Source: Streptomyces antibioticus (GTDB lineage: Bacteria > Actinomycetota > Actinomycetes > Streptomycetales > Streptomycetaceae). Taken from it: a stretch of DNA of 64,000 bases. The notes under the pieces are model-generated. The model ran no database searches and was not told the origin of the DNA. It saw only the letters and a program-made list of their open reading frames with translations. The position numbers were made by a program, and so were the translations under genes. The stretch covers positions 686,519 to 750,518 of the forward strand of contig NZ_KQ948425.1 of assembly GCF_001514065.1 (NCBI RefSeq), read 5' to 3'. Position 1 is the stretch's first letter. Each line of letters begins with the position of its first letter. Positions 20,735 to 55,091 of this stretch are shown here, in pieces.

Positions 20735-20749
20735 GGGTCCGTTCGGCCC
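20735..20749. promoter_or_regulatory. DosR/OsdR-like box in divergent Usp promoter
   Basis: GGGTCCGTTCGGCCC fits GGG-N8/9-CCC with complementary arms. It overlaps a second imperfect dyad starting at 20723 (GGGGCCCGTTCCGGGTCC). It is 89 bp from the left and 62 bp from the right gene start. Confidence 0.65.
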
Positions 20750-20810
20750 CCTGTGCGGGAGGTGGGCGCGCGGCGAGGGTGGAGGCCGCGGCTCCGAAAG
20801 GCGGCACACC

Positions 20811-21617
20811 ATGGGCCGAATGATCATCACCGGCGTCGACCGGTCCGCCCGCAGCAGGGCGGCGGCCGACTGGGCGGCGCGCGAGGCGCTGCTGCGCGGC
20901 CTGCCCCTGCACGTGGTGCACGTGACGGCATCGGACGAGTGGCCGCACCGCCCGGAGGCGGTGGCGGACCGGGTGCTCGCCGAACTCGTCCGGCGGCACC
21001 CGGAGTTGACGGGGAGCGGCAGCACGCTCTCCGGGGCGCCCGCGGACGTGTTGCGCACCCTCGCGGAGGATGCCGAGCTGCTGGTGCTCGGCCTGCGCGG
21101 CGAAGGCGGGCACGCCGGAGTCGCCGTCGGGTCGACGGCCGCGGCGCTGGCCGTGTCCTGTCCCGGGCCGCTCGTCCTGGTGCCCGGCGCCTACGCCGAC
21201 GAGCAGCTGCCGGGCCGGGCCGACGGGGTGACCGTGGGAATCGATGCCCGCGACCCGATGGGCCCGGCGGTCGACCTGGCCTTCGAGGCGGCCCGGCTGC
21301 GGGGTGCGCGACTGCATGCCGTGCATGCCTGGACGTTCCCCCCGCAGGTGGCGCGCTCGCCGTTCCCGGTGCTGGAGGAGGACCGGGCGACCTGGGAGGA
21401 CCAGGAGGTGCAGATGCTGACGGACGCGCTGCGGCCGTGGCGCGTCCGGTATCCGCGGGTGGACGTCCTGGAGGACGTGGTGCTGTTCAGGCCGGCCGAG
21501 GCGCTCGCCCACACGGCCCGCAACTCGGGCCTGGTGGTCGCCGGACGCCGCTCGGGCGACACGGCGCTCGCCCTGCTGGAACACGCGCGCTGTCCGGTGG
21601 CCGTGGTGCCCGCGTGA
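20811..21617 (+). CDS. universal stress protein, two Usp domains
   Basis: This is a 268-residue tandem Usp protein, shorter than its neighbours. Domain 1 keeps GLRGEGGHAGVAVGS as its ATP loop. The second domain is compressed: the usual GxxG loop is reduced to GRRSGDTALALLEHARCPVAVV. It may therefore bind nucleotide at one site only. The gene diverges from the Usp-PPDK operon and precedes the hydrogenase maturation genes by 124 bp. Confidence 0.9.
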   Translation: MGRMIITGVDRSARSRAAADWAAREALLRGLPLHVVHVTASDEWPHRPEAVADRVLAELVRRHPELTGSGSTLSGAPADVLRTLAEDAELLVLGLRGEGGHAGVAVGSTAAALAVSCPGPLVLVPGAYADEQLPGRADGVTVGIDARDPMGPAVDLAFEAARLRGARLHAVHAWTFPPQVARSPFPVLEEDRATWEDQEVQMLTDALRPWRVRYPRVDVLEDVVLFRPAEALAHTARNSGLVVAGRRSGDTALALLEHARCPVAVVPA

Positions 21618-21698
21618 GCCACGGTCGCCGCCGCCGACGCACCCGGGTGAGCTCCGTTACCGCCCCACCCGCCCGAGACCCGGTCGGCCCTCGCGGTC

Positions 21699-21713
21699 GG
21701 GCCCTTCGGCCCC
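21699..21713. promoter_or_regulatory. DosR/OsdR-like box before hydrogenase maturation genes
   Basis: GGGCCCTTCGGCCCC is a near palindrome 28 bp upstream of the protease gene. A weaker half-matching site, GACCCGGTCGGCCC, lies at 21677-21690. The short distance would put the box close to the promoter core. Confidence 0.6.
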
Positions 21714-21741
21714 TGGGAGCCGGGGCGGGCCGCATCGCACT

Positions 21742-22245
21742 GTGAGAGGCATGCAGAGGCCTGGTCGCATCGCCGTCATCGGCGTCGGGAACGAGTTCCG
21801 GCGCGACGACGGTGTGGGCTGGGCCGTGCTGGCCCGGCTGCGTGAGCGGCCCCTGCCGTCGGAGGCCCACCTCGCCACCTGCGACGGCGACCCCGGCCGG
21901 CTGATCGGCCTGTGGGAGGGCGCCCGGCTCGCCGTCGTCGTCGACGCCGCCCATGCCCACCCCGGCACTCCGGGCCGCGTCCATCGCCTGGAACTCGACG
22001 CCGGGCTCCTCGACCGGCCGCCCACGACCAGCTCGCACGGCCTCGGCCTCGGGGAGGCCGTCGAACTGGCCCGCGTCCTCGGCCTGTTGCCGGAGCATCT
22101 GGTCGTCTACGCCGTGGAAGGCGCCGACAGCACGCTGGGCACCGGCCTCTCCCCCGCCGTCGCGGACGCCGTCGACCCCCTCGTCGAAGCCGTCGAGGGC
22201 GAGATCGCACGGAGCGCGGCGGCAGCGGCGAGGGGGCCGGCATGA
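21742..22245 (+). CDS. [NiFe] hydrogenase maturation endopeptidase (HyaD/HycI type)
   Basis: This is a 167-residue protease that removes the C-terminal peptide of the hydrogenase large subunit after nickel insertion. The nickel-binding Glu and Asp lie in GNEFRRDDGVG and VVVDAAH, and the fold-closing GADSTLGTGLSP is present. The GTG at 21742 and ATG at 21751 are both possible starts. Its presence agrees with the 22-residue tail beyond the last nickel ligand in the large subunit encoded at 28065-29435. It overlaps hypF by 4 bp, so translation is coupled. Confidence 0.88.
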   Translation: MRGMQRPGRIAVIGVGNEFRRDDGVGWAVLARLRERPLPSEAHLATCDGDPGRLIGLWEGARLAVVVDAAHAHPGTPGRVHRLELDAGLLDRPPTTSSHGLGLGEAVELARVLGLLPEHLVVYAVEGADSTLGTGLSPAVADAVDPLVEAVEGEIARSAAAAARGPA

Positions 22246-24533
22246 CCGTGCACCGCTTCCGCGTGGACGGGATCGTGCAGGGCGTCGGCTTCCGTCCCTT
22301 CGTCTACCGCACCGCGGCGGATCTCGGCCTCGACGGCTGGGTGGCCAACGTCAACGGTCATGTGGAGGGCGAGGTCGCCGGGCCGCCGCATGCCGTCGAG
22401 GAGTTCGCGGCGCGGCTGCGCACCGACGCCCCGGCCCTCGCCCGGGTGCGGCGCGTCCGGCTGACCGGCGATCCCGGCAGGCTGTCGTACCGGGAGGGTT
22501 TCCGGGTGCGGCGCAGCGCGCCCCGGCCCACGGACACGACACCCCGCGAGATCCCGCCGGACGCGGCGATCTGCGCCGCATGCCTGGCCGAGCTGCGCGA
22601 CCCGCGCGACCGGCGCCACCGCTACCCGTTCATCAACTGCACGGACTGCGGCCCGCGCGCCACGATCATCGAGGACCTGCCCTACGACCGGGTCCGCACG
22701 ACCATGTGCCGCTTCCCGATGTGCCCGGCGTGCGCCGCGGAGTACGCCGACCCCGGCGACCGGCGCTTCCACGCCGAGCCCGTCGCCTGCCCGGCCTGCG
22801 GGCCCCGTCTCGCCTGGGACGGGTTGCGAGGCGAGCAGGCGCTGAGGGCGGCCGTGAAGACGCTCGACGAGGGCGGGATCGTCGCGGTCAAGGGGCTCGG
22901 CGGCTATCAACTGGTGTGCGACGCGGGCGACCCCGCCGCGGTGGCGGAACTGCGGCGGCGCAAACACCGTCCGGCGAAACCGTTCGCCGTGATGGTCGGC
23001 GACCTTGAGGCGGTGGCTCGGCTGGCCCGGTTCGGCGCCGGTGAGCGCGCCGCCCTGACCTCACCCGAGCGGCCCGTGGTGCTGCTCGCCCGGCGCCGCC
23101 TGCGCGGGGCGGTGGCGCCGCTCGCCCGCGAGGTGCACCCCGGGCTGCACCGGATCGGCCTGTTCCTGCCGACGACCGGCCTGCACCACCTCCTCCTCGA
23201 CGAACTCGCACGACCGTTGGTCGTCACCAGCGGCAACCTCACCGACGAGCCGATCGCCGTCGACGACACGGCGGCGGCCCGCACGCTGGCCCCGGTCGCG
23301 GACGGCTTCCTCACCCACGACCGACCGATCCGCTCCCGCTACGACGACTCCGTGGTGCAGTTCGCCGGCCGGACCCGGATCACCGTCCGCCGGGCGCGCG
23401 GGCTGGCCCCCGCTCCGCTGCGGCTCGCCGTACGGGACCCGGTCGCGGGCGTGGGCGCGCAGCTGAAGCACACGGTCACCCTGGCCGCCGACGGCCGCGC
23501 CCATCTCGGGCCGCACACCGGGGACCTGGCCGACCTGGCGACCTACGACGCGTTCGTGGCGTCGTACGACCAGCTCAAGCGGCTCACCGGCATCGAACCG
23601 CGCGTCCTGGCCCACGATCCGCACCCCGGCTACCTGTCCACGCAGTGGGCGGAGGCGCAGTCGTTGCGCCGCATGCCGGTGCAGCACCATCACGCGCACG
23701 TGGCGGCGTGCGCGGCCGAGCACGGGGTGCGGGGGCCGTTCCTCGGCGTCGCCTACGACGGTCTGGGGCTCGGTGACGACGGCACCCTGTGGGGCGGCGA
23801 GATCCTCGTCGCCGATCTGAGCGGCTACCGCCGCGTGGGCAGGTTCGCGACCGCGCCCCTGCCCGGCGGCGACGCGGCGGTACGCCATCCCTCCCGCACC
23901 GCGCTCGGCCGTCTTCTGGGCGGGGAGACGCTCGGCTTCCCGCGCCCCTACCCGTGGCTCACCCGGCCCTTCACGGACCGGCTCGACCCGGTCGAGGTCG
24001 CCGCCGTGCGCGCCATGGTCGCGCGGGACGTCAACTGCCCGCGGGCCTCCAGCGCGGGCCGGCTCTTCGACACGGTGGCCTCGCTGCTGGGACTGTGCGA
24101 CCAGGTGAGTTACGAGGGCGAGGCCGCCGTACTGCTGGAGGCGGCGGCGGGCAGCATGCGCGCCGTGCCGCTGCCCCATCGCGTCGTACGGGAGCGGGGC
24201 CTGTGGGTGTACGACCCCGCGCCGACCCTGGCCGACCTGCTGCGCAGGCGGCTGGACGGGGAGCCGGTGGGGATGCTGGCCGCCGCCTTCCACTCGACGC
24301 TCGCGGCCGTCACCGGGGAGCTGGTGGCCCGGGCCGTGGCCGAGGGCGCGCCCCGCACGGTCTGCCTGGGCGGCGGCTGCTTCGTCAACCGGCGACTGCT
24401 CACCGAGGTCGGACGCCGGCTGCGCGCGCAGGGGCTGCGGGTGCTGGTCGGCGGTCAGGTCCCGGTCGGGGACGGTGGCATCAGCTACGGACAGGCGGCG
24501 GTCGCGGCCGCGCGGCTGGCCGGGGAGAGGTGA
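22242..24533 (+). CDS. hypF: carbamoyltransferase HypF (hydrogenase maturation)
   Basis: This 763-residue enzyme makes the cyanide ligand precursor by transferring carbamoyl from carbamoyl phosphate to HypE's C-terminal cysteine. Domains in order are: acylphosphatase (RVDGIVQGVGFRPFVYR), two CX2C-X18-CX2C zinc fingers (CAACLAEL, NCTDCGPR, CPACAAEY, CPACGPR), a YrdC-like domain (KGLGGYQLVCDA) and a Kae1-like C-terminal domain (HHHAHVAACAAEH, CLGGGCFVNRRL). All key motifs are intact. It sits between the protease and hypC. Carbamate kinase (42092-43039) in the same island touches the same metabolite. Confidence 0.95.
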   Translation: MTVHRFRVDGIVQGVGFRPFVYRTAADLGLDGWVANVNGHVEGEVAGPPHAVEEFAARLRTDAPALARVRRVRLTGDPGRLSYREGFRVRRSAPRPTDTTPREIPPDAAICAACLAELRDPRDRRHRYPFINCTDCGPRATIIEDLPYDRVRTTMCRFPMCPACAAEYADPGDRRFHAEPVACPACGPRLAWDGLRGEQALRAAVKTLDEGGIVAVKGLGGYQLVCDAGDPAAVAELRRRKHRPAKPFAVMVGDLEAVARLARFGAGERAALTSPERPVVLLARRRLRGAVAPLAREVHPGLHRIGLFLPTTGLHHLLLDELARPLVVTSGNLTDEPIAVDDTAAARTLAPVADGFLTHDRPIRSRYDDSVVQFAGRTRITVRRARGLAPAPLRLAVRDPVAGVGAQLKHTVTLAADGRAHLGPHTGDLADLATYDAFVASYDQLKRLTGIEPRVLAHDPHPGYLSTQWAEAQSLRRMPVQHHHAHVAACAAEHGVRGPFLGVAYDGLGLGDDGTLWGGEILVADLSGYRRVGRFATAPLPGGDAAVRHPSRTALGRLLGGETLGFPRPYPWLTRPFTDRLDPVEVAAVRAMVARDVNCPRASSAGRLFDTVASLLGLCDQVSYEGEAAVLLEAAAGSMRAVPLPHRVVRERGLWVYDPAPTLADLLRRRLDGEPVGMLAAAFHSTLAAVTGELVARAVAEGAPRTVCLGGGCFVNRRLLTEVGRRLRAQGLRVLVGGQVPVGDGGISYGQAAVAAARLAGER

Positions 24534-24539
24534 GCGCGC

Positions 24540-24797
24540 ATGTGCCTGGGCATTCCGGGCCGGGTGGTCGAGGTCCACGACGACGAGGGCCTGCGCATGG
24601 CGACGGTCGACTTCGGCGGGATACGGCGAGAGGTGTGCCTGAGCTGCACGCCGGAGGCGGACGTCGGGTCGTACGTCATCGTCCATGTCGGCTTCGCGAT
24701 CACCCTCGTCGACGAGACGGAGGCCCGGCGGACGCTCGACGTGCTGCGGGCGATGGCGGGGGCCGTGGAGGGCGAGCTGGGCGAGCCGCTGCCGTGA
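24540..24797 (+). CDS. hypC: hydrogenase assembly chaperone HypC
   Basis: This 85-residue protein starts MCLGIPGRVVE. Cys2 is the residue that holds the Fe(CN)2CO unit with HypD before it passes to the large subunit. The OB-fold sequence and length are normal. It starts 6 bp after hypF. A 118-bp gap with two DosR-like boxes separates it from the structural genes, so a second promoter there is likely. Confidence 0.95.
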   Translation: MCLGIPGRVVEVHDDEGLRMATVDFGGIRREVCLSCTPEADVGSYVIVHVGFAITLVDETEARRTLDVLRAMAGAVEGELGEPLP

Positions 24798-24803
24798 GCC
24801 GGC

Positions 24804-24841
24804 GGGACCCGGTCGGCCCGTCAAGGGGGCCGGTCAGCCCC
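24804..24841. promoter_or_regulatory. Two DosR/OsdR-like boxes before the hydrogenase structural operon
   Basis: GGGACCCGGTCGGCCC (24804-24819) and GGGGCCGGTCAGCCCC (24826-24841) lie 22 bp apart start to start, about two helical turns. The nearer one ends 74 bp before the first structural gene. Paired sites favour cooperative binding. Confidence 0.7.
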
Positions 24842-24915: not shown

Positions 24916-26049
24916 ATGAGCGTCACCGCAGCCCCTGCCCTGCTCGACCGGGACGGTCTGAACGCGCTGGTCTCGGCGCTGGTGGCGCAGGGCCGGACCG
25001 TGATCGGGCCGACCGTCCGCGACGGTGCGATCGTGCTCGCGGAGCTGGACTCGGCGGACGCGCTGCCCTTCGGCTGGGGTGTCGAACTGGACGCCGGGCG
25101 CTATCGGCTGGTGCGGCGCGAGGACGGGGCCGCCTTCGCGCACAGCGCGGGCCCGCAGTCCTGGAAGAACTTCCTGCACCCGGCACGGGAGCGGTTGTGG
25201 AGCGCCGAGCGGACGCCGGAGGGGGACGTCTCCTTCACCCCGCAGGAGCCCGCCGTCCCCTCGTACGCCTTCCTCGGCGTCCGGCCCTGCGACCTGCGGG
25301 CCATCGCGATCCAGGGCCGGGTGCTGACCGGCGGACGGCACGCGGACGGCGGTTACGCCGGGCGTCGCGAGCGGGCGCTGATCGTCGCCGTGGAGTGCAC
25401 CGAGCCGGGCGCGGCCTGCTTCTGCGTCTCCACCGGTGGCGGGCCTGCCGTCGACCCCGGGTACGACCTTGCGCTCACCGAGGTGGACGGCCGGTTCCTG
25501 GTGCGGGTGGGCAGTGACGAGGGCGCCGCGCTGCTGGAGCAGGTCCCGCACCGGGGCGCCGGCCCGGACGTCGAGGAGAGCGCCCGTGCCGCCGTCGACT
25601 CGGCCCGCGAGCGGATGGGGCGTGCGCTGCCGCCGGTCGACCTGCGGGCCCTGATGGGCGCGAGCCTGACCGCCGAGCGCTGGGACGACGTCGCCGCCCG
25701 CTGTCTGACCTGCGGGAACTGCACGATGGTCTGCCCCACCTGCTTCTGCACCACCACGGAGGAGGTCACCGACCTCACCGGCGACCACACCGAGCGGTGG
25801 CAACGCTGGGACTCCTGCTTCGACCTGGACTTCTCGTATCTGCACGGCGGCCCGGTCCGTTCCTCGCCGCGCAGCCGCTACCGCCAGTGGCTCACCCACA
25901 AACTCGGCACCTGGCACGACCAGTTCGGCACGTCCGGGTGCGTCGGCTGCGGGCGCTGCATCGCCTGGTGCCCGGCCGGCATCGACATCACCGAGGAAGT
26001 GGCCGCCCTCGACACCGAGCGGGCGGCCCGGGGAACGGAGACGGACTGA
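24916..26049 (+). CDS. hydB: group 3b [NiFe] hydrogenase, iron-sulfur (beta) subunit
   Basis: This 377-residue electron-transfer subunit carries two cysteine clusters for [4Fe-4S] centres: [16 protein letters not shown] (Cys263-Cys278) and [16 protein letters not shown] (Cys342-Cys352). It matches the HydB/AsrA-like subunit of sulfhydrogenases and passes electrons between the delta and gamma subunits. It opens the structural operon and overlaps the next gene by 1 bp. From memory, the M. smegmatis homologue (Hyh/Hyd3) is part of a DosR-controlled operon used under hypoxia. Confidence 0.92.
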
Positions 26050-26513
26050 TGCCTCCCTCGATCGCGCTGCGCATGAACCACGCCCTGCCCGCCGAGCACC
26101 GCGACCGGCTGCTGCGGGTCGCCCGCGAGGCCCACTTCCCGCAGGGCACCCGCCTGTTCGAGGAGGGCGGCCACGCGAACCGCTTCTGGATCATCCGGGA
26201 CGGCATCGCCGCCCTCGACCTGCATGTGCCGGGCCGCCGCGCCCCGGTCGTCGAGACGCTCGGCGTCGGCGACCTGGTCGGCTGGTCGTGGCTGTACGAG
26301 CCCTATGTGTGGCAGCTGGGCGCCGAGACCGTCACCCCGGTGCGGGCCTACGAGTTCGATGCCGTCGCCGTGCGGCTGATGTGCCTCGACGACCCCGGGT
26401 TCGGCCGCGCCGTGGAGCACTGGGTGGGCCGGGTGCTGGCCCACCGGCTCCAGGCGGCCCGCACCCGGCTCCTGGACCTGTACGGCCCCTACAGCGGTGG
26501 CGGTGCCCGATGA
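26049..26513 (+). CDS. stand-alone cyclic-nucleotide-binding-fold protein (Crp-like, no DNA-binding domain)
   Basis: This 154-residue protein is a single Crp/Fnr-type beta-roll domain ([20 protein letters not shown], then DGIAALDL) with a C-terminal helix. No HTH follows, so it is not a DNA-binding regulator. In the ligand cassette, where cAMP-binding domains have GE..L....R.A, it reads [18 protein letters not shown]. The phosphate-holding Arg is absent. It lies inside the hydrogenase operon between beta and gamma subunits with overlapping codons (TGATG, ATGA), so it is made in step with the enzyme and may be an allosteric subunit. A close paralogue is at 43283-43747. Confidence 0.8.
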
Positions 26514-27316
26514 CGGACGTGCCGGTGCCGTACCGCGTGGTCGCCCGCAGGGCGGAGACCGCGGACACGGTCACGCTGTGCCTGGAGCCGGTCGGCGCCG
26601 CGCTGGACGACTTCACGCCGGGGCAGTTCGCGATGGTGCACTGCTTCGGACGCGGCGAGATCCCCGTCTCGGTGAGCTCCGTGCAGGCCACCGGCGGGCT
26701 CGCGCACACGATCCGCTCGGTCGGCGCGGTGTCGGCGGGGCTGTGCGCGGCGCAGGCCGGTGACGTGCTGGGCGTGCGGGGGCCGTACGGCCTCGGCTGG
26801 GAGTTGGAGCGGGCTCGCGGGCGGGACGTGGTCGTGGTCGCGGGCGGCATCGGGCTGGCCCCGCTCCGGCCGCTGATCCTGCGGGCGCTGGCCGAACCGG
26901 CGACGTACGGGCGGGTCAACGTGCTGATCGGGGCGCGGACGCCCGCCGATCTGATGTCCCGCAAGGAGATCGAACGCTGGCCGACCTCGTACACCGGCGT
27001 CACCGTCGACCGGCCCGACCAGGAGTGGCGGGGGGACGTCGGGCTCGTCACCGCGCTGCTGGACCGGGCGGACTTCGAGCCCGCGCGTGCCTCGGCGTTC
27101 GTGTGCGGGCCCGAGCCGATGATCCGGGCCACGGCCCGTGACCTCGTCTTCCGAGGCGTGCCCGCGGAACGGATCAGGGTCTCCCTGGAGCGGAACATGC
27201 GCTGCGCGACCGGGCACTGCGGCCACTGCCAGCTCGGGCCGCTGCTGCTGTGCCAGACGGGGCCGGTCGTGGACTGGACCGCCGCCGAACCGCTGCTGTC
27301 GGTACGGGAGTTGTGA
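26510..27316 (+). CDS. hydG: group 3b [NiFe] hydrogenase, FAD/NAD(P)-binding (gamma) subunit
   Basis: This 268-residue diaphorase subunit resembles ferredoxin-NADP reductase. It has the FAD-binding beta barrel ([13 protein letters not shown]), a nucleotide-binding [17 protein letters not shown], and a C-terminal four-cysteine [2Fe-2S] motif ([12 protein letters not shown]...C). It exchanges electrons with NAD(P)H. It overlaps the preceding gene by 4 bp and the following one by 1 bp. Together with the alpha and delta subunits it would couple H2 to the pyridine-nucleotide pool. Confidence 0.92.
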
Positions 27317-28068
27317 TGAAGCCGACCCTCGCCGTGTTCAAACTGGCGTCCTGCGACGGCTGTCAGCTCACCCTGCTGGACTGCGAGGACGAACTCCTCA
27401 CGCTGGCGGGCGAGGTGGAGATCTCGCACTTCCTGGAGGCGTCCAGCTCGGTCGCGGGCGGACCCTACGACCTGACCCTCGTCGAGGGCTCGGTGACCAC
27501 GGCCGGGGACGCCGAACGCATCCGCGCGATCCGGGCGGCTTCCCGCCATCTGGTGACCATCGGGGCGTGCGCGACGGCCGGCGGCATCCAGGCCCTCAGG
27601 AACTTCGCGGACGTCGACGCCTACCGGCGCGTGGTGTACGCGCATCCCGAGTACATCGACACGCTCGCCACCTCCACCCCCGTCTCGGCCCATGTCGACG
27701 TCGACTTCGAGCTGCGCGGCTGCCCCATCGACAAGCGCCAACTCATCGAGGTCCTCACCGCCTTCCTCGCCGGACGCAAGCCGAACGTGCCGAACCACAG
27801 CGTCTGCTTCGAGTGCAAGCGGCGCGGCACGGTCTGCGTGACCGTCGCCCACGGCACCCCCTGCCTGGGACCGGTCACGCGCGCCGGGTGCGGGGCCCTG
27901 TGCCCCGCGTACCGGCGGGGCTGTTTCGGCTGCTTCGGTCCGTCCGGGTCGGTGAACCTGCCCGCGCTCGTCCCGGTGCTGCGCCGCGACGGCCTCGACG
28001 AGGGCGACGTCCAGCGGTTCCTGCACACCTTCAACGCCACCGCTTTCGACGAGGAGTTGTCGCCGTGA
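27316..28068 (+). CDS. hydD: group 3b [NiFe] hydrogenase, small (delta) subunit
   Basis: This 250-residue subunit carries iron-sulfur clusters from the active site to the electron-transfer module. The proximal cluster ligands are in [16 protein letters not shown] and RGCPID. Further cysteines ([35 protein letters not shown]) supply two more clusters. No twin-arginine signal is present, so the enzyme is cytoplasmic, as for group 3. It overlaps the large-subunit start by 4 bp (GTGA). Confidence 0.94.
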
Positions 28069-29435
28069 CCCACCGTGGATCCCGTGTGCTGCACGTCGGC
28101 TCGCTGTCCCGGGTCGAGGGCGAGGGCGCGCTACGCCTGCGCGTGCACGACGGGACGGTCACCGAGGCACGGCTGGAGATCTACGAACCGCCGCGGTTCT
28201 TCGAGGCGTTCCTGTGCGGCCGCTCGTACACCGAACCGCCCGACATCACCGCCCGGGTGTGCGGGATCTGCCCGGTGGCCTACCAGATGAGCGCCTGCGC
28301 GGCGATCGAGGACGCCTGCGGGGTGATCGTCGATCCGGTGATCCGTGCGCTGCGGCGGCTGCTGTACTGCGGCGAGTGGATCGAGAGCCAGGCCCTGCAC
28401 ATCTATCTGCTGCATGCGCCGGACTTCCTGGGCCGGGCGAGCGCGATCGAACTGGCCCGCACGCACCGGGCCGAGGTCGAGCGGGGGCTGCGGCTGAAGA
28501 AGGCCGGCAACTCGCTGATGGAGCTGCTCGGCGGGCGGGCCGTACATCCCGTGAACGTCCGCCTCGGCGGCTTCCACCGGGTGCCGACGCGACAGGAACT
28601 GCGCCCGCTGCGCGAGGAGTTGAAGCAGGCGCTCGACGACGCCTGGGACACCGTGCACTGGGTGGCGGGCTTCGAGTTCCCGGACGCCACCGTCGAGGCC
28701 GACCTGCTGGCGCTGGCCGAGCCGGACACGTACGCCATCGAGGGCGGCACCCCGACCGTGCTGCGCACGGACGGGCTCCAAACCACCTTCCCGGTACGGG
28801 ACTTCACCACGCACGTCACCGAGACCCATGTTCCGCACTCCACCGCACTGCACTCCCGGCTGGACGGGCGGCTCCATCTCACCGGTTCCCTGGCCCGGTT
28901 CGCGATCAGCGGGGCTCGCCTGTCACCGGTGGCACGGGAGGCGGCCGTGGCGGCGGGGCTGGGCGACCCCCGTGAGGGCGCGGTGTGCCGCAATCCGTTC
29001 CGGTCGATCCTGGTGCGGGCTGTGGAGACGCTGTACGCCGTCGACGAGGCCCTGCGGATCATCGGCTCGTACGAGCCTCCCGAGCACCCGTACGCGGAGG
29101 TCCCGCCCGTCGCGGGTGTCGGGCACGGCGCCACCGAGGCGCCGCGCGGGCTGCTCTACCACCGCTACGAACTCGGCGCCGACGGCCTGATCGCCGACGC
29201 GCGGATGGTGCCGCCGACCGCGCAGAACCAGGGCGCGATCGAGGACGACCTGCGCCGGATCGCCCAGTCCGCCCTCTCCGAACAGGGCGCGGACGACGAT
29301 GAATTGACGCATCTGTGCGAGCGGGCGATCCGCAACCACGACCCGTGCATCTCGTGTTCGACCCATTTTCTCGACCTGACGGTCGTGAGGACCGCAGGAG
29401 ACACTGCGGGAGGCTGCGATGTCCGAATCCCCTGA
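28065..29435 (+). CDS. hydA: group 3b [NiFe] hydrogenase, large (alpha) catalytic subunit
   Basis: This 456-residue subunit holds the NiFe site. The N-terminal ligands are Cys66 and Cys69 ([11 protein letters not shown]) and the C-terminal ones Cys428 and Cys431 (DPCISCSTH, His434). In many [NiFe] enzymes the N-terminal motif is followed by His four residues after Cys69; here that place is Tyr73. A tail of 22 residues follows His434 and overlaps the next gene by 17 bp; the operon's endopeptidase would cut there. Start is the GTG overlapping the delta stop. Reaction: H2 to two protons and electrons, reversible, NAD(P)-linked. Confidence 0.94.
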
Positions 29436-30063
29436 AACCCCTCAATCCCCGTACACCGTGAGCGATGTGATGACGCACACGGTCGTCGCCGTCGGACGCG
29501 ACGCGTCCTTCAAGGAGATCGTCGGCCTGATCGACGAGTGGAAGGTCAGCGCGCTGCCGGTCCTGGAGGGCGAGGGGCGGGTCGTCGGTGTGGTCTCCGA
29601 GGCCGACCTTCTGGCCAAGGAGGGCGTCAAGGGCGGCGGTGAGCAGGCCTTCGACCGCGCCGAGCGGGCCAAGGCCGAGGGGCTGACCGCCGGTGAGTTG
29701 ATGAGCGCGCCCGCGATCACCGTGCACGCGGACGCGTCGGTCGCCGAGGCGGCCCGCATCATGGCCCGACGGCATGTGAAGCGGCTGCCCGTGGTGGACG
29801 CGATCGGCCTCCTCCAGGGCGTGGTCAGCCGCAGCGACCTGCTGAAGGTGTTCCTGCGGCCCGACGAGGAGATCGCCGACGAGATCGTCCGCTCCGTGCT
29901 GACGAAACTGCCGGTGACCACTCCCCTGTCGGTGGCCGTCTCCGACGGCGTGGCCACGCTCACCGGTTCCGCGGCCGAGCGCACCTACCTGCCCATCGTG
30001 GCGCGGGCGGTGCAGGGGGTCGAAGGCGTCGTCGACGTCCGGCTGGAGCTCACCGGCCGATGA
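29419..30063 (+). CDS. CBS-BON domain protein in the hydrogenase operon
   Basis: This 214-residue protein has two CBS motifs ([20 protein letters not shown] with [40 protein letters not shown] with [11 protein letters not shown]) followed by a BON domain ([20 protein letters not shown]). Paired CBS domains usually bind adenine nucleotides such as AMP or ATP, and BON domains often mediate membrane or protein contact. It lies between the large-subunit gene (17-bp overlap) and hypD (4-bp overlap), an unusual place, so it may sense energy charge for the enzyme. Three paralogues occur in the island. Confidence 0.9.
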
Positions 30064-31157
30064 AGTACCTCGACGAGTACCGTGACCCGGTGCTCGCCCG
30101 GCGGCTGCTGGACGAGCTGCGGCGGACGGCCACGCGCCCCTGGCGGATCATGGAGGTGTGTGGCGGCCAGACCCACACCCTGGTCCGGCAGGGCATCGAC
30201 GAGCTGCTGCCGGCCGGGATGCGGATGATCCACGGCCCCGGCTGCCCGGTCTGCGTCACCCCGCTGGAGACCCTGGACCGGGCCATGGCCGTCGCCGCCC
30301 GGCCCGGCGTGATCCTCACCAGCTTCGGCGACATGCTGCGGGTGCCGGGCACCGACACCGACCTGCTGTCGCTGCGGGCGCGCGGGGCGGACGTACGGGT
30401 CGTGTACGCCCCGATGGACGCCGTACGGCTGGCCGCCGAGCACCCGGAGCGTGAAGTCGTCTTCCTAGCCGTCGGGTTCGAGACGACGGCCCCCGCCAAC
30501 GCGACGGCCGTGCTGCACGCGGCCCGCCTCGGCCTGACGAACTTCTCGATGCTGGTCAGCCACGTCCTCGTACCGCCCGCCATGACCGCCCTGCTCGACG
30601 ACCCCGACTGTGAGGTGCAGGCGTTCCTCGCGGCCGGGCACGTGTGCGCGGTGATGGGCTGGCGGGAGTACGAGCCGATCGCCGCCCGGTACCGGGTGCC
30701 GATCGTGGTGACCGGGTTCGAGCCGCTGGACCTGCTGGAGGGCATCCTGATGGCCGTACGGCAGCTGGAGTCCGGCCGGAACGAGGTCGAGAACCAGTAC
30801 GCGCGTGCCGTGCGGCGGGCCGGGAACACCGAGGCCCAGGACGCCGTGCGCAAGGTCTTCCGGGTCACCGACCGGGCCTGGCGCGGCATCGGGAAGCTGC
30901 CCGGCAGCGGGCTCGAACTCACCGAGGAGTACGCCCGGTTCGACGCGGCCCGCCGCTTCGACGTGGGCGGGCTCAGCCCGGTCGAGGACCCCGACTGCAT
31001 CGCCGGCTCGATCCTCACCGGGGCCCGGCTGCCCACGGACTGCGCCGCGTACGGCACCCGTTGCACCCCCCGCCATCCCCTGGGCGCGCCCATGGTGTCG
31101 TCCGAGGGCACCTGCGCCGCCTTCCACGCGGCCGGACGTGTCAGGAGTACGTCATGA
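30060..31157 (+). CDS. hypD: hydrogenase assembly factor HypD
   Basis: This 365-residue [4Fe-4S] scaffold assembles Fe(CN)2CO with HypC. Motifs in order: [42 protein letters not shown], and the cysteine-rich C-terminus ([29 protein letters not shown]). All expected cysteines appear to be present. It overlaps the CBS-BON gene and hypE by 4 bp each, so the whole block is translationally coupled. Confidence 0.95.
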
Positions 31158-32188
31158 CCATCGAGTGCCCCACTCCCCGTCACGAGGACGAGGTCGTGCT
31201 GCTCGGCCACGGCGCCGGGGGACGCCTCACCGCGGAGTTGCTGGACCGGCTGATCCTGCCGTCCCTGAGCGGCGAGCCCGGTCCGCTGGAGGACGCGGCG
31301 CTGCTGCCCGGCTACCGCGAACTGGTCATCAGCACGGACAGTTTCGTCGTCAGTCCGCTGTTCTTCCCCGGCGGGGACATCGGGTCCCTCGCCGTGCACG
31401 GGACCGTCAACGACCTCGCGATGCGAGGCGCGTGGCCGATCGCGCTGTCCGTCTCCCTCATCGTCGAGGAGGGGCTGGCGCTGGCCGAACTGCGGGCCGT
31501 CATGGAGTCGTTGGGAAAGGCCGCGCAGGAGGCCGGGGTGCCGGTCGTCACCGGGGACACCAAGGTGGTGGGGCGCGGCGCGGCCGACCGGCTGTTCGTC
31601 AACACCACCGGCGTCGGACAGCGGCACGGCTCGCTGCATCCGTCCGCGGCCCTCGCCCGGCCCGGCGACGCGGTGCTGCTGTCCGGGCCGATCGGGCTGC
31701 ACGGCACGACCGTGCTGAGCACCCGGGAGGGCCTCGGGTTCGAGGGCGACATCGCCTCCGACAGCCGCCCCCTGCACCGGCTCGTCCGGGCGCTGGCCCC
31801 CTACGGACCCGACGTGCACGTCCTGCGCGATCCGACGCGGGGCGGCCTGGCCGCGGCGCTCAACGAGATCGCCCGCGACTCCGCCGTCACCGTCGAGATC
31901 GAGGAGAGCGCGGTCCCCGTGCCCGAGGCCGTCGCCGCCGCCTGCGACCTGCTCGGCCTCGACCCGCTGATCGTCGCCAACGAGGGCTGCCTGGTCGCCT
32001 TCGTCACCGGGGACGCGGCCGACGACGTCCTCGCCGCGATGCGATCGCTGCCGGAGGGGGCTCGTGCGGTGCGGATCGGCGAGGTGGCGGCGCGGGAGCC
32101 GCAGGGGCGGGTGGTGCTGCGGACGCTGGTGGGGGCGCGGCGGATCGTGGAGATGCCGCTGGGTGAGCAGTTGCCGCGGATCTGCTGA
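31154..32188 (+). CDS. hypE: hydrogenase maturation protein HypE
   Basis: This 344-residue PurM-like ATPase dehydrates a C-terminal thiocarboxamide to thiocyanate, the CN source. It shows [57 protein letters not shown], and the essential terminal Cys in PRIC. It ends the hydrogenase operon. hypA and hypB, which insert nickel, are not in the window and must be elsewhere or replaced. The last codons lie in a triplicated microrepeat (32176-32230). Confidence 0.95.
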
Positions 32189-37192: not shown

Positions 37193-37278
37193 GACGGATC
37201 TCCTCACAGGTCTTCTCGTCACTTGGAGCATCCAGCGGATCCGGCGCTGCTCCCATGGGCCGCCCGGGCGGCTCCGCT

Positions 37279-37292
37279 GGGCCGGTCGGCCC
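37279..37292. promoter_or_regulatory. DosR/OsdR-like box before the acetyltransferase operon
   Basis: GGGCCGGTCGGCCC, with a 6-bp inverted arm on each side of a 2-bp centre, lies 87 bp upstream of the start at 37192. Confidence 0.7.
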
Positions 37293-37359
37293 TCGTGAGC
37301 CAGGTGCTCGCCGCGCGGTCCGCGGGACGGAACCCGGGATCGCGCGGCGAGGGTGTCGT

Positions 37360-40254: not shown

Positions 40255-40316
40255 GGGGCCGCAGGTCCCCGCGCGGGGCCGAACGGCCCACCCTCGGGCG
40301 GGGGTCTGAAGGTCCC
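40255..40316. promoter_or_regulatory. Three DosR/OsdR-like boxes in the Usp/SulP divergent promoter
   Basis: Three dyads lie in 62 bp: GGGGCCGCAGGTCCCC (40255-40270), GGGCCGAACGGCCC (40276-40289) and GGGGTCTGAAGGTCCC (40301-40316). They lie about 21-25 bp apart start to start, two helical turns, placing them on one DNA face. They lie 60 bp from the Usp start and 55 bp from the SulP start, so both can be controlled. Confidence 0.75.
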
Positions 40317-40371
40317 TTTGCAGCCGGGCGTACTGTCGCCGAACCTGAAGGCAGTAAGCGAAAGGAACCGC

Positions 40372-43039: not shown

Positions 43040-43152
43040 GGCTGGACTCCTCGATCCGGGGCCGCTGGAGCTGCTTCCCATCGAACGGCGTTCCGTCCCC
43101 CGTCCACAGGGTGCTGAAGGGCATCGACGCATCGCCGGCCGGCCCTGGGGCA

Positions 43153-43166
43153 GGGCCGGGTGGCCC
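43153..43166. promoter_or_regulatory. DosR/OsdR-like box between carbamate kinase and the cyclic-nucleotide-fold gene
   Basis: GGGCCGGGTGGCCC is a near palindrome 114 bp from the left and 117 bp from the right gene start, in a 243-bp divergent region. Confidence 0.55.
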
Positions 43167-43282
43167 ATGGCCCGGGCGTGCCCGGACGTCCACGCTGGTG
43201 GTGGTAGCTCCGTATGCCGTCCCGGACGCCCGTGGCCCCCCTCCCCGGGTCCGAGCGGCACACGACCCTCTGGAGGCACGCC

Positions 43283-48956: not shown

Positions 48957-48972
48957 GGGGCCGATCGGCCCC
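48957..48972. promoter_or_regulatory. Perfect DosR/OsdR-like palindrome
   Basis: GGGGCCGATCGGCCCC is an exact 16-bp palindrome, the best box in the window. It lies between the divergent Usp (start 48852) and small zinc-ribbon (start 49012) genes. Confidence 0.8.
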
Positions 48973-49730: not shown

Positions 49731-50417
49731 TCAGGGCTCCGCCACGAGATCCGGATCGAGGACGGGCGGCCTCGGCGGCCCCATGAGCGCGCTGTCCGCG
49801 TCCACCACGCCCTCCACGGCCCGTGTGAGCCGTACGGCGATGGGGACGAGCCCGGTGTCCCAGACGCGGCCGGTCAGGGTGACGACCCCGTCGCGCACGT
49901 CCACCCGCACCGGTTCCAGCGGGTCGGGGAAGAGCGGCTCGACGACCTCTCGGCGCACTTCCTCGGCGATGTCCGCGTCCGTGCGCAGAAAGACCTTGAG
50001 CAGGTCGGTGCGGCTGACGATGCCCGTCAGGACACCGGCGCCGTCGACGACCGGCAGGCGTTTGACCTGGTGCCGCGCCATGATCCGGGCGGCCCGGGCG
50101 AGGCTCGCGTCCGGGTCGATGGTGACGGCGGGTGCCGTCATCAGCTCGCCCGCGGTGCGCGCCTGGGCCCGCGCGAGGGCTTCGGGACGGCGCAGGCGGA
50201 CGTCCTCGTCGGCGTCGTGCGCACGGAACTCCTCCTTGGGCAGCAGATCCGCCTCGGAGACCACGCCCACGACCCGGTGCCCGTCGTCCACCACGGGCAG
50301 CGCGCTGATCTGCCGGCGCCGCATGGCCTTCACGATGTCCTTGAACGTCACGGTGCTCCCGAGGGCGACGACGCTGCGGGTCATCACGTCGCTCACGAGG
50401 CGGGGACTGCTGTACAT
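49731..50417 (-). CDS. CBS-BON domain protein
   Basis: This 228-residue protein has two CBS motifs ([80 protein letters not shown]) and a BON domain (VRVDVRDGVVTLTGRVWDTG). It diverges from a Usp gene across a 274-bp region holding three DosR-like boxes. The start has GGAGG 5 nt upstream. Confidence 0.9.
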   Translation of the reverse strand: MYSSPRLVSDVMTRSVVALGSTVTFKDIVKAMRRRQISALPVVDDGHRVVGVVSEADLLPKEEFRAHDADEDVRLRRPEALARAQARTAGELMTAPAVTIDPDASLARAARIMARHQVKRLPVVDGAGVLTGIVSRTDLLKVFLRTDADIAEEVRREVVEPLFPDPLEPVRVDVRDGVVTLTGRVWDTGLVPIAVRLTRAVEGVVDADSALMGPPRPPVLDPDLVAEP

Positions 50418-50497
50418 GGGGGCCTCCGGCGTGCTCGGCCGTCGTCGCGGGGGCGACGTCTGTCTCCAGACTGGGGCGAGCGACGCGCCGCCGGCTT

Positions 50498-50603
50498 GGG
50501 CCGACCGGCCCTCGTCAAGGGCCCCGACGGGCAATCCCCGCTGCCCGGCCGCTCCGGCGCTGTCCATCGGGGCCGTTCGGCCCCCTGCCGGGCCGGTCAG
50601 CCC
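50498..50603. promoter_or_regulatory. Three DosR/OsdR-like boxes between CBS-BON and Usp genes
   Basis: GGGCCGACCGGCCC (50498-50511), GGGGCCGTTCGGCCCC (50569-50584) and GGGCCGGTCAGCCC (50590-50603). The last two are 21 bp apart. The first is 80 bp from the CBS-BON start, and the last is 88 bp from the Usp start, so each gene has its own nearby site. Confidence 0.75.
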
Positions 50604-50691
50604 CCGCCCGGCAGGGGGCCCGCCCGGCGACGCTGATGACGAAGGGATCCGCGCACCGGCGCGCGGACACTGATGCCGGGAGGTGAGGCCC

Positions 50692-51585: not shown

Positions 51586-51638
51586 GGCACGACGGCGGCA
51601 GAGAACGTCCTTCGCCACTCCGGCCTGGTCCGCGACTG

Positions 51639-52667: not shown

Positions 52668-52742
52668 GTCCGTCGTCCTCCCGATCGGTGTCCGGTGGTT
52701 GCGGTGCGCTGCCAGCCTCCGGCCCGGGTGCCCGCCGCGGCA

Positions 52743-52779
52743 GGGGCCGTACGGGGCCGGGGTCCGGGCCACCCGGCCC
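52743..52779. promoter_or_regulatory. DosR/OsdR-like boxes between gap and the hibernation-like gene
   Basis: GGGGCCGTACGGGGCC (52743-52758, right arm weak) and GGGCCACCCGGCCC (52766-52779) lie 75-100 bp from the gap start and 60 bp from the rightward gene. Confidence 0.55.
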
Positions 52780-52838
52780 TGGGAGCGGGTGTGGGCGGGC
52801 GGGAGGGTGGGACCGTCGGCAGAGGATCGGAGTGGGAG

Positions 52839-53216
52839 ATGGGGCACATGGCATTCAGCGGCATCCAGGTGCGGGCGACGGGCGATGTCGACGCCGAGGC
52901 GCTCGGGTACGTCCGGGCGAAGGTCGCGGCGGCCTTCGAGCGGCCCGGGCTCCCGGACGTCAGCGGCGAGGTGCGGATCGCCCACGCGTCTGCGCAGCAC
53001 GTGGCGCAGCCGTGGTCGGCGGCGGCCGAGATCCGGGTGGGCGACGCCCTCGTCGTCGTACACGCGCAGGAGGCGAGCGCGCACGAGCTGGCCGACCGGT
53101 TGCAGGACCGGCTGCGAGGTCGCGCCGACCGCGTGGCCCATCGCGGCGACGAGGCGCGCAAGGCGGCGACGCCGCCGCCGTGGCGCGGGGGGCCGGGCAC
53201 GGAGACCGGCGGCTGA
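52839..53216 (+). CDS. ribosome hibernation factor-like (HPF/S30AE) protein, short
   Basis: This 125-residue protein resembles the HPF/RaiA N-terminal domain: VRATGDVDAEALGYVRAKVA, then AAFERPGLPDV, a beta strand with basic residues and a second helix (ASAHELADRLQDRLRGRADR). It lacks the C-terminal dimerisation domain of long HPF. If the assignment is right, it would silence ribosomes in stress, parallel to the DosR-regulated Rv0079 of M. tuberculosis. Starts at 52839 and 52848 are both possible. It ends 2 bp before a strong terminator. Confidence 0.68.
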   Translation: MGHMAFSGIQVRATGDVDAEALGYVRAKVAAAFERPGLPDVSGEVRIAHASAQHVAQPWSAAAEIRVGDALVVVHAQEASAHELADRLQDRLRGRADRVAHRGDEARKAATPPPWRGGPGTETGG

Positions 53217-53218
53217 GC

Positions 53219-53271
53219 GACGCGTGCGAAGGGGGTGCGGCCGGGGCGGCCGCACCCCCTTCGCACGCGTC
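53219..53271. terminator. Long perfect hairpin terminator, bidirectional
   Basis: A 24-bp perfect stem (53219-53242 with 53248-53271) and a GGGGC loop lie between two convergent genes, 2 bp after one stop and 7 bp from the other. Confidence 0.9.
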
Positions 53272-53278
53272 CGGGCGG

Positions 53279-54112
53279 TCATCCGGTCGCCGGCACCAGC
53301 ACCACCGGGCAGTGCGAGCGGTGCAGCAGCGTGTGGGCCACCGGGCCGAGCTGAGGGCCGAGGCGACCGGCACGGCGGTGGGCGCCGATGACGACGACGG
53401 CCGCGTCGCCCGTGGCCGCCAGCAGGGCGTGCGCCGGTCCGGTGGACACCGTGCGGGCCTCCACGCCGACGCCGGGGTGCTGCTCCTCCAGCCGGGCCAG
53501 GCTGAAACGGGGTACGGCTTCCTCGGCCCGGTCCTCGCGGTCGCGGTGCCGTTGCCCGGGGCTGGTGGCGGGGATCGGCGAGGGCAGCTCGGGCGTGATG
53601 TGCCGGTGAGTGCGGGAGTGCAGGACACGTAGCCCGACCTCGCGTCGCGCCGCCTCCGCGAAGGCGTACGCGGCGGCCTCGGTGTCGGAGTCGTCCGCCA
53701 GGCCCAGCAGGACCTCCTCCTTGCCGTCGCACGGGTGATCGCCGCGTACGACGAGCAGCGGGCCCCGCACCCGTGCGGCCAGCCGCAGGCTCACGGAACC
53801 GGCCATCAGGCCGGTGACCCCGCTGAGACCCCGGGTGCCGACGACGGTGAGGGCCGCGCCCTCGCTTTCCCGCGCGAGCACCCGGACGGGGCTGCCCGCG
53901 ACGGCCCGGGACGTCACCGTCAGGCCCGGGTGGCGTTCACGCACGCGTGCGACGGCCGAGGCGAGGACCGGGCCGGCCTCGTCGCGGTCGGGCACGGCGT
54001 AGACGATCCGCAGCTCGGCAGCGCGCCGCGCGGCCTCGTCCGAGGCCCAGTCAAGGGCCCGTACGGCGACCAGTGAACCGTCCGTTCCCACGACCACTTG
54101 CTGGAGAGTCAT
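53279..54112 (-). CDS. universal stress protein, two Usp domains
   Basis: This is a 277-residue tandem Usp protein with GTRGLSGVTGLMAGS as ATP loop and GPVAHTLLHRSHCPVVLV at the end. A longer linker holds a polar segment (PGQRHRDREDRAEEA). The start ATG has GAGAGG 4 nt upstream. It is convergent with the hibernation-like gene and 120 bp downstream of an FMN-binding gene on the same strand. Confidence 0.9.
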   Translation of the reverse strand: MTLQQVVVGTDGSLVAVRALDWASDEAARRAAELRIVYAVPDRDEAGPVLASAVARVRERHPGLTVTSRAVAGSPVRVLARESEGAALTVVGTRGLSGVTGLMAGSVSLRLAARVRGPLLVVRGDHPCDGKEEVLLGLADDSDTEAAAYAFAEAARREVGLRVLHSRTHRHITPELPSPIPATSPGQRHRDREDRAEEAVPRFSLARLEEQHPGVGVEARTVSTGPAHALLAATGDAAVVVIGAHRRAGRLGPQLGPVAHTLLHRSHCPVVLVPATG

Positions 54113-54214
54113 GTCCTCTCCTCCTCTGCTCTGTGGTCCCGATACTCGTCCGCCCGCACCACGCCGGGCAGAGGCCGGGCGCACCCGGTGAAGCGCCGGA
54201 CGGCCCCTTTCGCA

Positions 54215-54228
54215 GGGCCGTACGGACC
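54215..54228. promoter_or_regulatory. DosR/OsdR-like box before Usp gene
   Basis: GGGCCGTACGGACC lies 102 bp upstream of the Usp start at 54112, just after the stop of the FMN-binding gene. Confidence 0.55.
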
Positions 54229-54232
54229 GGTG

Positions 54233-54673
54233 TCAGTCCGAGAGGTGGATGCCGTAGAGCGTGCGGCCGCCGACGAGTGCGCGGCCGCTGACCAGGTCGG
54301 GCTCGATCCGGACGAAGACCTCCTCGGGCGAGGGCACCCAGGAGCGCGGACCGGTGCGGGTCAGGCGGTCGTGCTCGGCCGGGTCCGTGACGACCGAGGC
54401 GGCGCCGGTGACGACGACGCTCCAGCCGGAGTGCGTGACGGCGTCGACCTGGTCGGCCTCGAAGGCCACGACCGCGCCGTCGATGGCCCGGACCAGCTCC
54501 GACGCGGCCGCGGTGCGCAGCAGCACGGCGCCGTCACCGTCCAGAGTGAAGTTGACCGGCAGGACGGCGGGCAGGGCCTGGCGGGTGTGGACGATCCGGC
54601 CCACGGGCACCTCGGCCAGCAGTCGCAGACATTCCTGCCGTTGGAGTTCGCGGAATCCGTCGTTGGGATACAT
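54233..54673 (-). CDS. pyridoxamine 5'-phosphate oxidase-like FMN/F420 split-barrel protein
   Basis: This is a 146-residue flavin-binding split barrel (LLAEVPVGRIVHTRQALPAV, PVNFTLDGDGAVLLRTAAAS, GWSVVVTGAASVV, WVPSPEEVFVRIEPDLVSGR). Members bind FMN, F420 or heme; the DosR-regulon protein Rv3129 has this fold, to my memory. Substrate is unknown. A GGGCCGTCAGTCCC box lies 83 bp upstream. Confidence 0.82.
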   Translation of the reverse strand: MYPNDGFRELQRQECLRLLAEVPVGRIVHTRQALPAVLPVNFTLDGDGAVLLRTAAASELVRAIDGAVVAFEADQVDAVTHSGWSVVVTGAASVVTDPAEHDRLTRTGPRSWVPSPEEVFVRIEPDLVSGRALVGGRTLYGIHLSD

Positions 54674-55091
54674 GGCCAGACCGTCTTTCGCCGGAAGCGG
54701 CAGGCGCGCGCCGCACGTCGTCCGTCCATGGTGGGCGAACGGGCATCGAGCGCGAAGGGCCGTCAGTCCCGGATGTTCCGGACAACGGCCCTGTCGCTCC
54801 GCCCCCCGGCGCCCGCCGGCGGACGCAGGTCCTGGTGCGACCGGCCCACCCCTCCCGGTCCAATGTCCAGGACAGGAACAGACCTATCGGCGGCCTACCG
54901 TCGAAGCGTCAGGCGCGACCGGCGAAGGGAACACCATGACCGAGCAGAGGACAGCCCGGGCCCTGGCGGCGGGCGGCCAGGTGGTCACCGCCAGGGCGAA
55001 CGACGCCTTCGGGCAGCGCGGCGGCCGCAGCAGCGCGCCCGTCAGGAGCGGCGACCGACTCGGCCTGGCTCCGTGCCCAGCGGGGCGAGTT
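54674..55091. other. Right edge of the stress island, with orphan gene start
   Basis: This 418-bp gap holds the box at 54757-54770. At 54936 there is an ATG with GAAGGGA 5 nt upstream opening MTEQRTARALAAGGQVVTAR, but the frame runs into the antisense of the next gene without a sensible end. It may be the first ~45 codons of a gene cut off by a past rearrangement. Confidence 0.4.
54757..54770. promoter_or_regulatory. DosR/OsdR-like box before FMN-protein gene
   Basis: GGGCCGTCAGTCCC; its right half AGTCCC equals that of the M. tuberculosis DosR box. It lies 83 bp upstream of the start at 54673. Confidence 0.65.

Follow-up and report, generated by a model that had tools for sequence, protein, structure and literature searches.

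The window analysed here comprises 64,000 nucleotides of Streptomyces antibioticus DNA (NCBI RefSeq assembly GCF_001514065.1, contig NZ_KQ948425.1; C4:686519-750518 within a 10.15-Mb genome of 29 contigs) and carries a recurrent near-palindromic promoter box which, by motif match, is predicted to be bound by OsdR, which is the DosR/DevR counterpart in Streptomyces. The 16-bp palindrome AGGGCCGATCGGCCCT, the published OsdR site, was detected upstream of genes of a stress and hydrogenase island with a weight matrix built solely from the 26 S. coelicolor sites printed in PMC5069765, which is independent of the window and has a maximum score of 22.3. The prediction is supported by Urem et al. 2016, whose available text reports the same palindrome in S. 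coelicolor with OsdR electrophoretic mobility shift assays and mutant probes (PMC5069765), and the identity of the box, which an earlier sequence-only reading of the window had also proposed, is therefore already in print. The boxes of the window are confirmed as real, were correctly read and are known in kind; the additions made here are an extent of approximately 65 kb with the regulator outside the window, a hydrogenase as likely target and a spacing rule of 20-22 bp. The published S. coelicolor matrix thus transfers to another Streptomyces, and a sharply defined regulon prediction of approximately 65 kb is obtained.

The box island around osdRK

The matrix was applied to 738 kb of contiguous blocks of the own genome (plus small pieces), to 120-kb neighbourhoods of osdR in six relatives and to 80 hydrogenase loci; sites scoring at least 11 were regarded as strong, while orthologue and operon counts used a score of at least 9. 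Genes were called with a simple codon-composition script, and some start codons are approximate. The island (C4:707-772 kb) holds 20 strong sites in 8,563 intergenic bp, as compared to 3 in the remainder of C4:520-858 kb (35,798 intergenic bp; Fisher p 5e-12) and none among the 58,739 intergenic positions of another 400 kb drawn from contigs C1-C3. Dinucleotide shuffles of the island intergenic pieces gave a mean of 0.33 strong sites, the largest value being 2 in 200 shuffles, the reversed intergenic sequence gave none, and 2 were present in the 56 kb of island coding sequence. A promoter box that recurs across the stress island, as first proposed, is thereby borne out, and intergenic boxes are far from equally common elsewhere in the scanned genome.

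Raw copy number is uninformative, because the reversed control of the exact box GGGCCGNNCGGCCC is at least as frequent (35 copies) as the box itself (26 copies genome-wide), and it is position that separates real sites. Twelve of the 26 copies lie inside C4:706775-770136 (63 kb, corresponding to 0.6% of the genome, for which approximately 0.16 would be expected by length), and six copies are located in the window. According to the script gene calls, 11 of the 12 island copies are intergenic, the exception being a coding copy at window position 20257, as compared to 3 intergenic and 11 coding among the 14 copies outside the island. A loose consensus with up to 3 mismatches (431 matches versus 380 expected) was uninformative in this GC-rich DNA, and the degenerate pattern GGSCCGNNCGGSCC fared no better genome-wide (128 versus 154 for its reversed control). 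Of the three exact copies that are intergenic but lie outside the island, one (G000:C1:279059, score 14.9) is situated upstream of two divergent genes, at 174 and 462 bp, and possibly marks a distant regulon member.

The regulator pair is encoded 15-17 kb beyond the window. The osdK gene (C4:765134-766825) adjoins osdR and specifies a protein with two GAF domains, a HisKA_3 domain and an ATPase domain; its first GAF domain matches DevS (2y8h, E 9e-46) and 2vzw (E 4e-51), which we take to be DosT, and the HPPM histidine at position 131, presumably the heme ligand, is kept, so heme binding by OsdK is predicted from homology. The osdR gene (C4:766978-767673, minus strand) encodes a NarL-type response regulator whose best solved-structure match is M. 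tuberculosis DevR/DosR (3c3w, E 4e-79, homology over 210 residues), and in the alignment to 3c3w, with numbering counted by hand, it keeps Asp54 as well as K179, K182 and N183, the latter three being presumably DNA-contacting. K182 is described as the core DNA-binding lysine in the available part of PMC5999986. Two near-perfect boxes precede osdR, at C4:767768 (score 19.8) and C4:767829 (score 21.7), and because osdRK and these two boxes lie beyond the window the island spans approximately 65 kb; the box island of the sequence-only reading is therefore real, albeit neither limited to the 34 kb assigned to a single regulon nor complete without a regulator that the window does not contain. Further boxes beyond the window precede genes for a flavohaemoglobin (761469) and a STAS protein (770173), a nitroreductase-like gene (770562-771593) and PNPOx-like genes, and one box follows the flavohaemoglobin gene at 30 bp and lies approximately 571 bp upstream of the called start of a PAS-SpoIIE gene.

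This arrangement resembles the S. coelicolor OsdR (SCO0204) regulon, for which the available text of PMC5069765 likewise gives the same palindrome, a box before osdR and clustering round osdRK, and the two share nearby Usp (universal stress protein), alcohol dehydrogenase (ADH), pyruvate phosphate dikinase (PPDK), nitroreductase and PNPOx families, a comparison of Pfam matches with Table 1 of that paper which concerns families only. Unlike the S. coelicolor regulon, the island contains a [NiFe]-hydrogenase with its maturation genes and a boxed flavohaemoglobin gene, and nar genes were absent among the Pfam-scanned proteins, which cover part of the genes of the 65 kb.

Site architecture and recurrence in relatives

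Site architecture was analysed in a pooled set (the island, the 120-kb osdR neighbourhoods of the six relatives and the 80 hydrogenase loci) of 275 intergenic sites, as compared to 12 in the reversed controls. The boxes behave as promoter elements: they are densest in divergent gaps (1.32 per kb; 116 in 87.6 kb), intermediate in co-directional gaps (0.88 per kb) and sparsest in convergent gaps (0.26 per kb; 11 in 42.1 kb), and of the 148 co-directional sites 87 are placed 60-120 bp upstream of the start codon as called. Among 227 distinct sites the bases of the GGG element are conserved at 92-96%, position 5 is C in 82% and A in 17%, and the central pair is mostly A/T, frequencies that are partly circular as the sites were selected by the matrix.

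Boxes are frequently paired. Around 251 sites scoring at least 12, second sites scoring at least 5 were found in 22, 15 and 16 distinct cases at 20, 21 and 22 bp, respectively, with 0-5 cases at any other distance up to 120 bp; with distances 19 and 23 omitted, this corresponds to an 11-fold higher pairing rate at 20-22 bp (53/1,465) than elsewhere (124/37,611). The peak was also obtained (14, 8 and 11) with higher thresholds, in a count where two strong partners enter twice, and the island itself holds seven of the 20-22 bp pairs; as the counts come from related loci, they carry no independent p-values. The interval of 21-25 bp given by the sequence-only reading is accordingly corrected to 20-22 bp. 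Two helical turns are what would be expected of two dimers on one helix face. Close packing of two or more sites with cooperative binding is described for DevR in the available text of PMC3029386, and a published S. coelicolor pair, that of SCO0517 (-248/-268), is likewise 20 bp apart (PMC5069765). The island thus shares with M. tuberculosis DosR/DevR the regulator homology, the close-packed sites and the 14-bp GGG-N8-CCC layout; however, the equality with the DosR core that had been proposed extends to this layout and not to the inner bases, which are CCG/CGG here (CCG at positions 4-6) versus ACT/AGT in the DosR core as quoted there, and the gene content differs as well.

Recurrence of the boxes was determined for orthologues defined as mutual best matches of at least 60% identity, whereby upstream regions shorter than 30 bp were dropped and a box in a divergent gap was counted for both genes. 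The near set consists of 22 loci, namely the six genomes and the 16 nearest hydrogenase loci (at least 74% identity). The numbers are favoured by the choice of the six relatives scanned over 120 kb, which were picked, several of them for high counts, from the genomes closely matching OsdR once box counts were available; for the per-gene alignment and recurrence 17 hydrogenase loci were picked after the box results had been seen, one of them (L053, 71%) because boxes were seen in it, and the 110/174 total given below was obtained without that locus. A box was present in 110 of 174 upstream regions of the near set (reversed control 5), in 136 of 285 regions over all 86 loci (reversed 10) and in 23 of 105 regions of the 63 more distant loci alone (reversed 5). 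The boxes best kept in the near set are those before osdR (8/8), the flavohaemoglobin gene (4/4), the hydrogenase beta-subunit gene (16/16), the maturation protease gene (11/11), the acyltransferase-like gene (11/12) and three Usp genes (7/7, 6/6 and 5/5), while recurrence was sparse for HypD (2/13 relatives) and HypF (1/7 relatives). The six osdR neighbourhoods together contain 81 intergenic sites versus 1 in the reversed control, and four distant 20-kb background stretches contained none.

Proposed mechanism and competing explanations

The motif match, the placement and spacing of the boxes, their recurrence before orthologues and the regulator homology make it very probable that OsdR recognises the box as its DNA site and that phosphorylated OsdR dimers activate the stress and hydrogenase operons and osdR upon low oxygen or changed redox/nitric oxide (NO) state. 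OsdK would sense this state, phosphorylated OsdR dimers would bind the palindromes, often cooperatively as two dimers on the same helix face with centres 20-22 bp apart, and OsdR would act as an activator rather than a repressor of universal stress, CBS-BON, acyltransferase, flavohaemoglobin, glycolytic and hydrogenase operons as well as of osdR itself.

A number of observations weigh against this proposal. The S. coelicolor DevSR system (SCO0203/0204) is reported to be inhibited by NO, which lowered DevS autophosphorylation (PMC4766573), while NO is reported to activate DosT in Mycobacterium in the discussion of PMC5069765; the sign of the NO signal may therefore differ from that in Mycobacterium, and because the two effects are opposite the signal is put as either oxygen loss or NO. 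Several island genes are without a box of their own, namely the hypothetical gene at 32251 (box in 0/1 relatives), Usp 37360 (0/5), CBS-BON 43782 (0/6), the GH65 gene (0/3) and the flavodoxin gene at 33196 (1/4), and unless they belong to the operon of a boxed gene they would escape the regulator. Two of the relatives (G091 and G101) have as few as 6 and 5 intergenic sites at up to 60 kb from osdR, and their WW-centred boxes number 20 and 11 genome-wide, so that the regulon does not always form one island. The related loci are not independent of one another, which inflates the significance of the pooled counts. Finally, a paralogue (G000:C5:459148-459786; L168, L186) is 67% identical to OsdR and has the same KxxKN recognition residues, as compared to at most 44% identity for the other 32 OsdR matches in the genome at E 1e-30 or better.

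That another response regulator such as this paralogue binds the boxes mainly or jointly is the strongest of the alternatives, though an improbable one. Its recognition helix could allow such binding; however, the matrix scan detected no box scoring at least 9 directly upstream of its gene, whereas osdR itself is located inside the box island. A survey of 150 Streptomyces genomes (149 without the own genome), classed by match strength only so that orthologues and paralogues may be mixed, is informative in this respect. In the 36 of 149 genomes where the best OsdR match is of paralogue-like strength, the WW-centred box showed a small excess over its reversed control (91 versus 57, p 0.02), as would be expected if proteins of the paralogue type could bind it, but the excess was larger in the 103 genomes with a close match of E below 1e-90 (501 versus 202), both at E 1e-90 to 1e-111 (272 versus 109, n=62) and below 1e-111 (229 versus 93, n=41). 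No excess was observed in the 10 genomes without a regulator match (17 versus 25), and close-match genomes differed from the rest for the box (p 6e-9) and not for the reversed control (p 0.11).

It is very unlikely that the palindromes act at the RNA level, as terminator or attenuator hairpins, and not as protein sites. Streptomyces DNA is generally rich in GC-rich inverted repeats, and the box, judged by inspection, could fold into a 5-bp stem with a 4-base loop. Terminators are nevertheless poorly reconciled with the sparsity of boxes in convergent gaps and their density in divergent ones, and among 248 departures from consensus at paired positions the partner base keeps a Watson-Crick pair in just 7 and a G-T pair in 30, a scarcity of compensation which favours a dimeric DNA site; Rfam at gathering threshold gave no match in the window. 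The hairpin explanation was rejected on these grounds. That GC-rich composition yields the palindromes by chance deserves practically no credence: the near-chance counts of loose matches, the reversed exact pattern and the coding sequence of the hydrogenase loci (box 47 versus reversed 54) agree with it, but for the strong sites as a group it is refuted by the intergenic excess over near-zero controls in the island, in the six relatives and in the 80 hydrogenase loci (187 versus 13 reversed), and by the positional recurrence before orthologues.

The [NiFe]-hydrogenase and the other boxed genes

Less expectedly, boxes also stand before the hydrogenase genes of the window. The maturation genes for a protease (HycI family), hypF and hypC (21751..24797, plus strand; Pfam, with NCBIfam for the protease) are followed by the structural genes of a putative sulfhydrogenase-type [NiFe]-hydrogenase (24916..29435, plus strand; Pfam and NCBIfam), in the order beta (24916), cNMP-binding (26049), gamma (26510), delta (27313) and alpha (28086), and by CBS-BON, hypD and hypE genes in the same run (29458..32188, plus strand; Pfam, with NCBIfam hypE above cut-off). 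The alpha subunit has sulfhydrogenase 1 alpha as its best PDB match (E 5e-67); NCBIfam ShyA scores 254.7 bits, far below its equivalog cut-off of 700, and the subunit equivalog cut-offs were not reached. In our judgement the enzyme is a candidate cytosolic alpha-beta-gamma-delta hydrogenase of the group 3b or sulfhydrogenase type. A small cNMP-binding protein (26049-26513) is encoded between beta and gamma and a CBS-BON protein (29458-30063) after alpha, and a link of second messengers to the hydrogenase is possible.

A box (24826..24841, score 12.7) lies 82 bp before the beta-subunit gene and forms a 21-bp pair with a weak distal box (24805..24820, score 5.2), an element resembling which is visible in several rows of the relatives' alignment; the beta box is present in 16/16 nearest relatives and in 29/53 of all loci with an orthologue. 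The maturation protease gene is likewise preceded, at 45 bp, by a box (21698..21713, score 13.1) with a distal partner at 22 bp (21676..21691, score 10.5), and a box before this gene is kept in 11/11 near relatives and in 12/18 of all loci. The nearest named hydrogenase loci include those of S. justiciae (92% identity), S. blattellae (88%) and Streptomyces sp. HD (87%). Of the 80 hydrogenase loci, 2 were excluded for want of a usable gene call; a box precedes the operon in 43 of the remaining 78 (reversed control 5), and 6 of the 35 boxless ones have no upstream gap to score. By identity the box was found in 16/16 loci at 74% or above, in 5/21 at 69-73% and in 22/41 below; the loci at 69-73% (L032-L055) carry it less often than more distant ones. 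Boxed loci below 69% include those of a Lentzea, Planosporangium, Actinomadura, Spongiactinospora and a Trueperaceae metagenome-assembled genome, while a second Lentzea and a second Actinomadura hydrogenase locus have no box. The Trueperaceae locus (L078), labelled non-actinobacterial, has a box of score 14.3 located 107 bp upstream of one of the hydrogenase-run genes, for which chance or mis-binning is possible, and its 13.5 kb contain no OsdR homologue at E 1e-20.

These data indicate that the hydrogenase is likely an OsdR target in some Streptomyces. A precedent is Hyh of M. smegmatis (MSMEG_3927-3931), an alpha, beta, gamma, delta [NiFe]-hydrogenase which, in the available text of PMC2799521, is induced up to 67-fold (beta) at 0.6% oxygen saturation and which is assigned to the dos regulon in PMC8125079 and PMC13098282, as far as their available text goes. 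The Streptomyces case, which is likened to Hyh by description and derives from sequence only, differs in that its run includes cNMP-binding and CBS-BON genes. It is thus predicted that some streptomycetes, as M. smegmatis does, place a hydrogenase under the dormancy regulator, which would tie H2 metabolism of soil actinomycetes to a defined oxygen/NO sensor. A broader and more tentative proposal is that actinobacteria have long had a cytosolic [NiFe]-hydrogenase, redox-balancing and probably H2-evolving, under OsdR/DosR control, and that part of Streptomyces has kept this arrangement, in which two dimers at 20-22 bp obey a strict tandem grammar and by which aerobic streptomycetes would switch to fermentative H2 upon oxygen loss sensed by OsdK; we hold this somewhat less probable than its opposite, and our confidence, which was already short of even, was lowered because the box is universal in the nearest loci but patchy further out. 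The titles and abstract openings among the matches listed contain no report of an OsdR-controlled Streptomyces hydrogenase, a joint literature search for group 3b, hydrogenase, DosR and hypoxia yielded no paper, and the word start 'Hydrogen' is absent from the main text of PMC5069765.

Between 19744 and 54112 the window holds seven Usp and four CBS-BON genes in 35 kb, and 6 of the 7 Usp genes have a box in their upstream gap. A box at 20735..20750 (score 14.1) is located in the gap of two divergently oriented Usp genes, at 88 bp from 20655 and 77 bp from 20820, and precedes the UspA1 orthologue in 7/7 relatives and the UspB orthologue in 4/4. At 40275..40290 a box (score 16.3), flanked by a weak partner at 20 bp (40255..40270, score 7.2) and a weak third box at 27 bp (40302..40317, score 7.9), is located 88-89 bp before a Usp gene (39289-40194, minus strand; followed by ADH and Usp genes) and 206 bp before a SulP gene (40489, plus strand); it precedes the Usp orthologue in 6/6 near relatives, at 90-100 bp from the start, and SulP in 2/4. 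The box at 48957..48972 (score 18.4) lies before a Usp gene (47977-48852, minus strand, then HAD and GH65 genes), before whose orthologue it recurs in 5/5 near relatives and 6/9 of all loci, and a small open reading frame (ORF; 49012, plus strand). A CBS-BON gene (49731-50417, minus strand) has a box at 88 bp (50497..50512, score 16.8), while the Usp gene at 50797 (plus strand) is preceded by a 20-bp pair (50569..50584, score 17.9, at 220 bp, and 50589..50604, score 11.2) and another Usp gene (53279-54112, minus strand) by a 22-bp pair at 88 bp (54192..54207, score 13.0) and 110 bp (54214..54229, score 14.0). The gene for a pyridoxamine-oxidase-like FMN protein (54233-54610, minus strand) has a box at 153-154 bp (54756..54771, score 11.6), found in 5/7 relatives. 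A GNAT/acyl-CoA-synthetase-like gene (34487-37192, minus strand) has a box at 93-94 bp (37278..37293, score 16.8), which recurs at a nearly constant distance (89-112 bp) in 11/12 near relatives and in 11/14 of all loci; its product resembles protein acetyltransferases in architecture, with a GNAT acetyltransferase domain fused to CoA-binding, succinyl-CoA-ligase-like and ATP-grasp domains.

Two genes have weak boxes only. The cNMP-binding gene at 43 kb is preceded by a box at 54 bp (43152..43167, score 6.7) and by a second at 43131 (score 7.5), 21 bp from it, and has a box in 4/15 relatives. The called gap ORF (window 51639-53141) carries 158 extra N-terminal residues without a matching domain, NCBIfam matches start at residues 159-163, and the likely start is an ATG at 52667 with GGGAGG in front of it; reassigned to it, the gene has two boxes upstream rather than in coding sequence, at approximately 83 bp (52743..52758, score 8.8) and 106 bp (52765..52780, score 6.8) and 22 bp from each other, and the gap upstream region has a box in 2/4 relatives versus 1/4 in the reversed control. 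Individually, the weak sites at 43152 and 52765 could be due to chance. Of the sixteen copies originally listed, the eleven at 20735, 21699, 24826, 37279, 40276, 48957, 50498, 50569, 50590, 54215 and 54757 are strong, and those at 24804, 40255, 40301, 43153 and 52766 are weak (5.2-7.9), albeit each with a second site 20-27 bp away, which is a strong one for the first three (21, 20 and 27 bp) and another weak one for the last two (21 and 22 bp); the boxes at 21676, 54192, 52743 and 43131 had been missed. Outside the island, the region 7700-12000 of the window has a lower GC content (0.673 over 8001-12000) and few called genes, among them a LexA-like repressor gene at 10178-10864.

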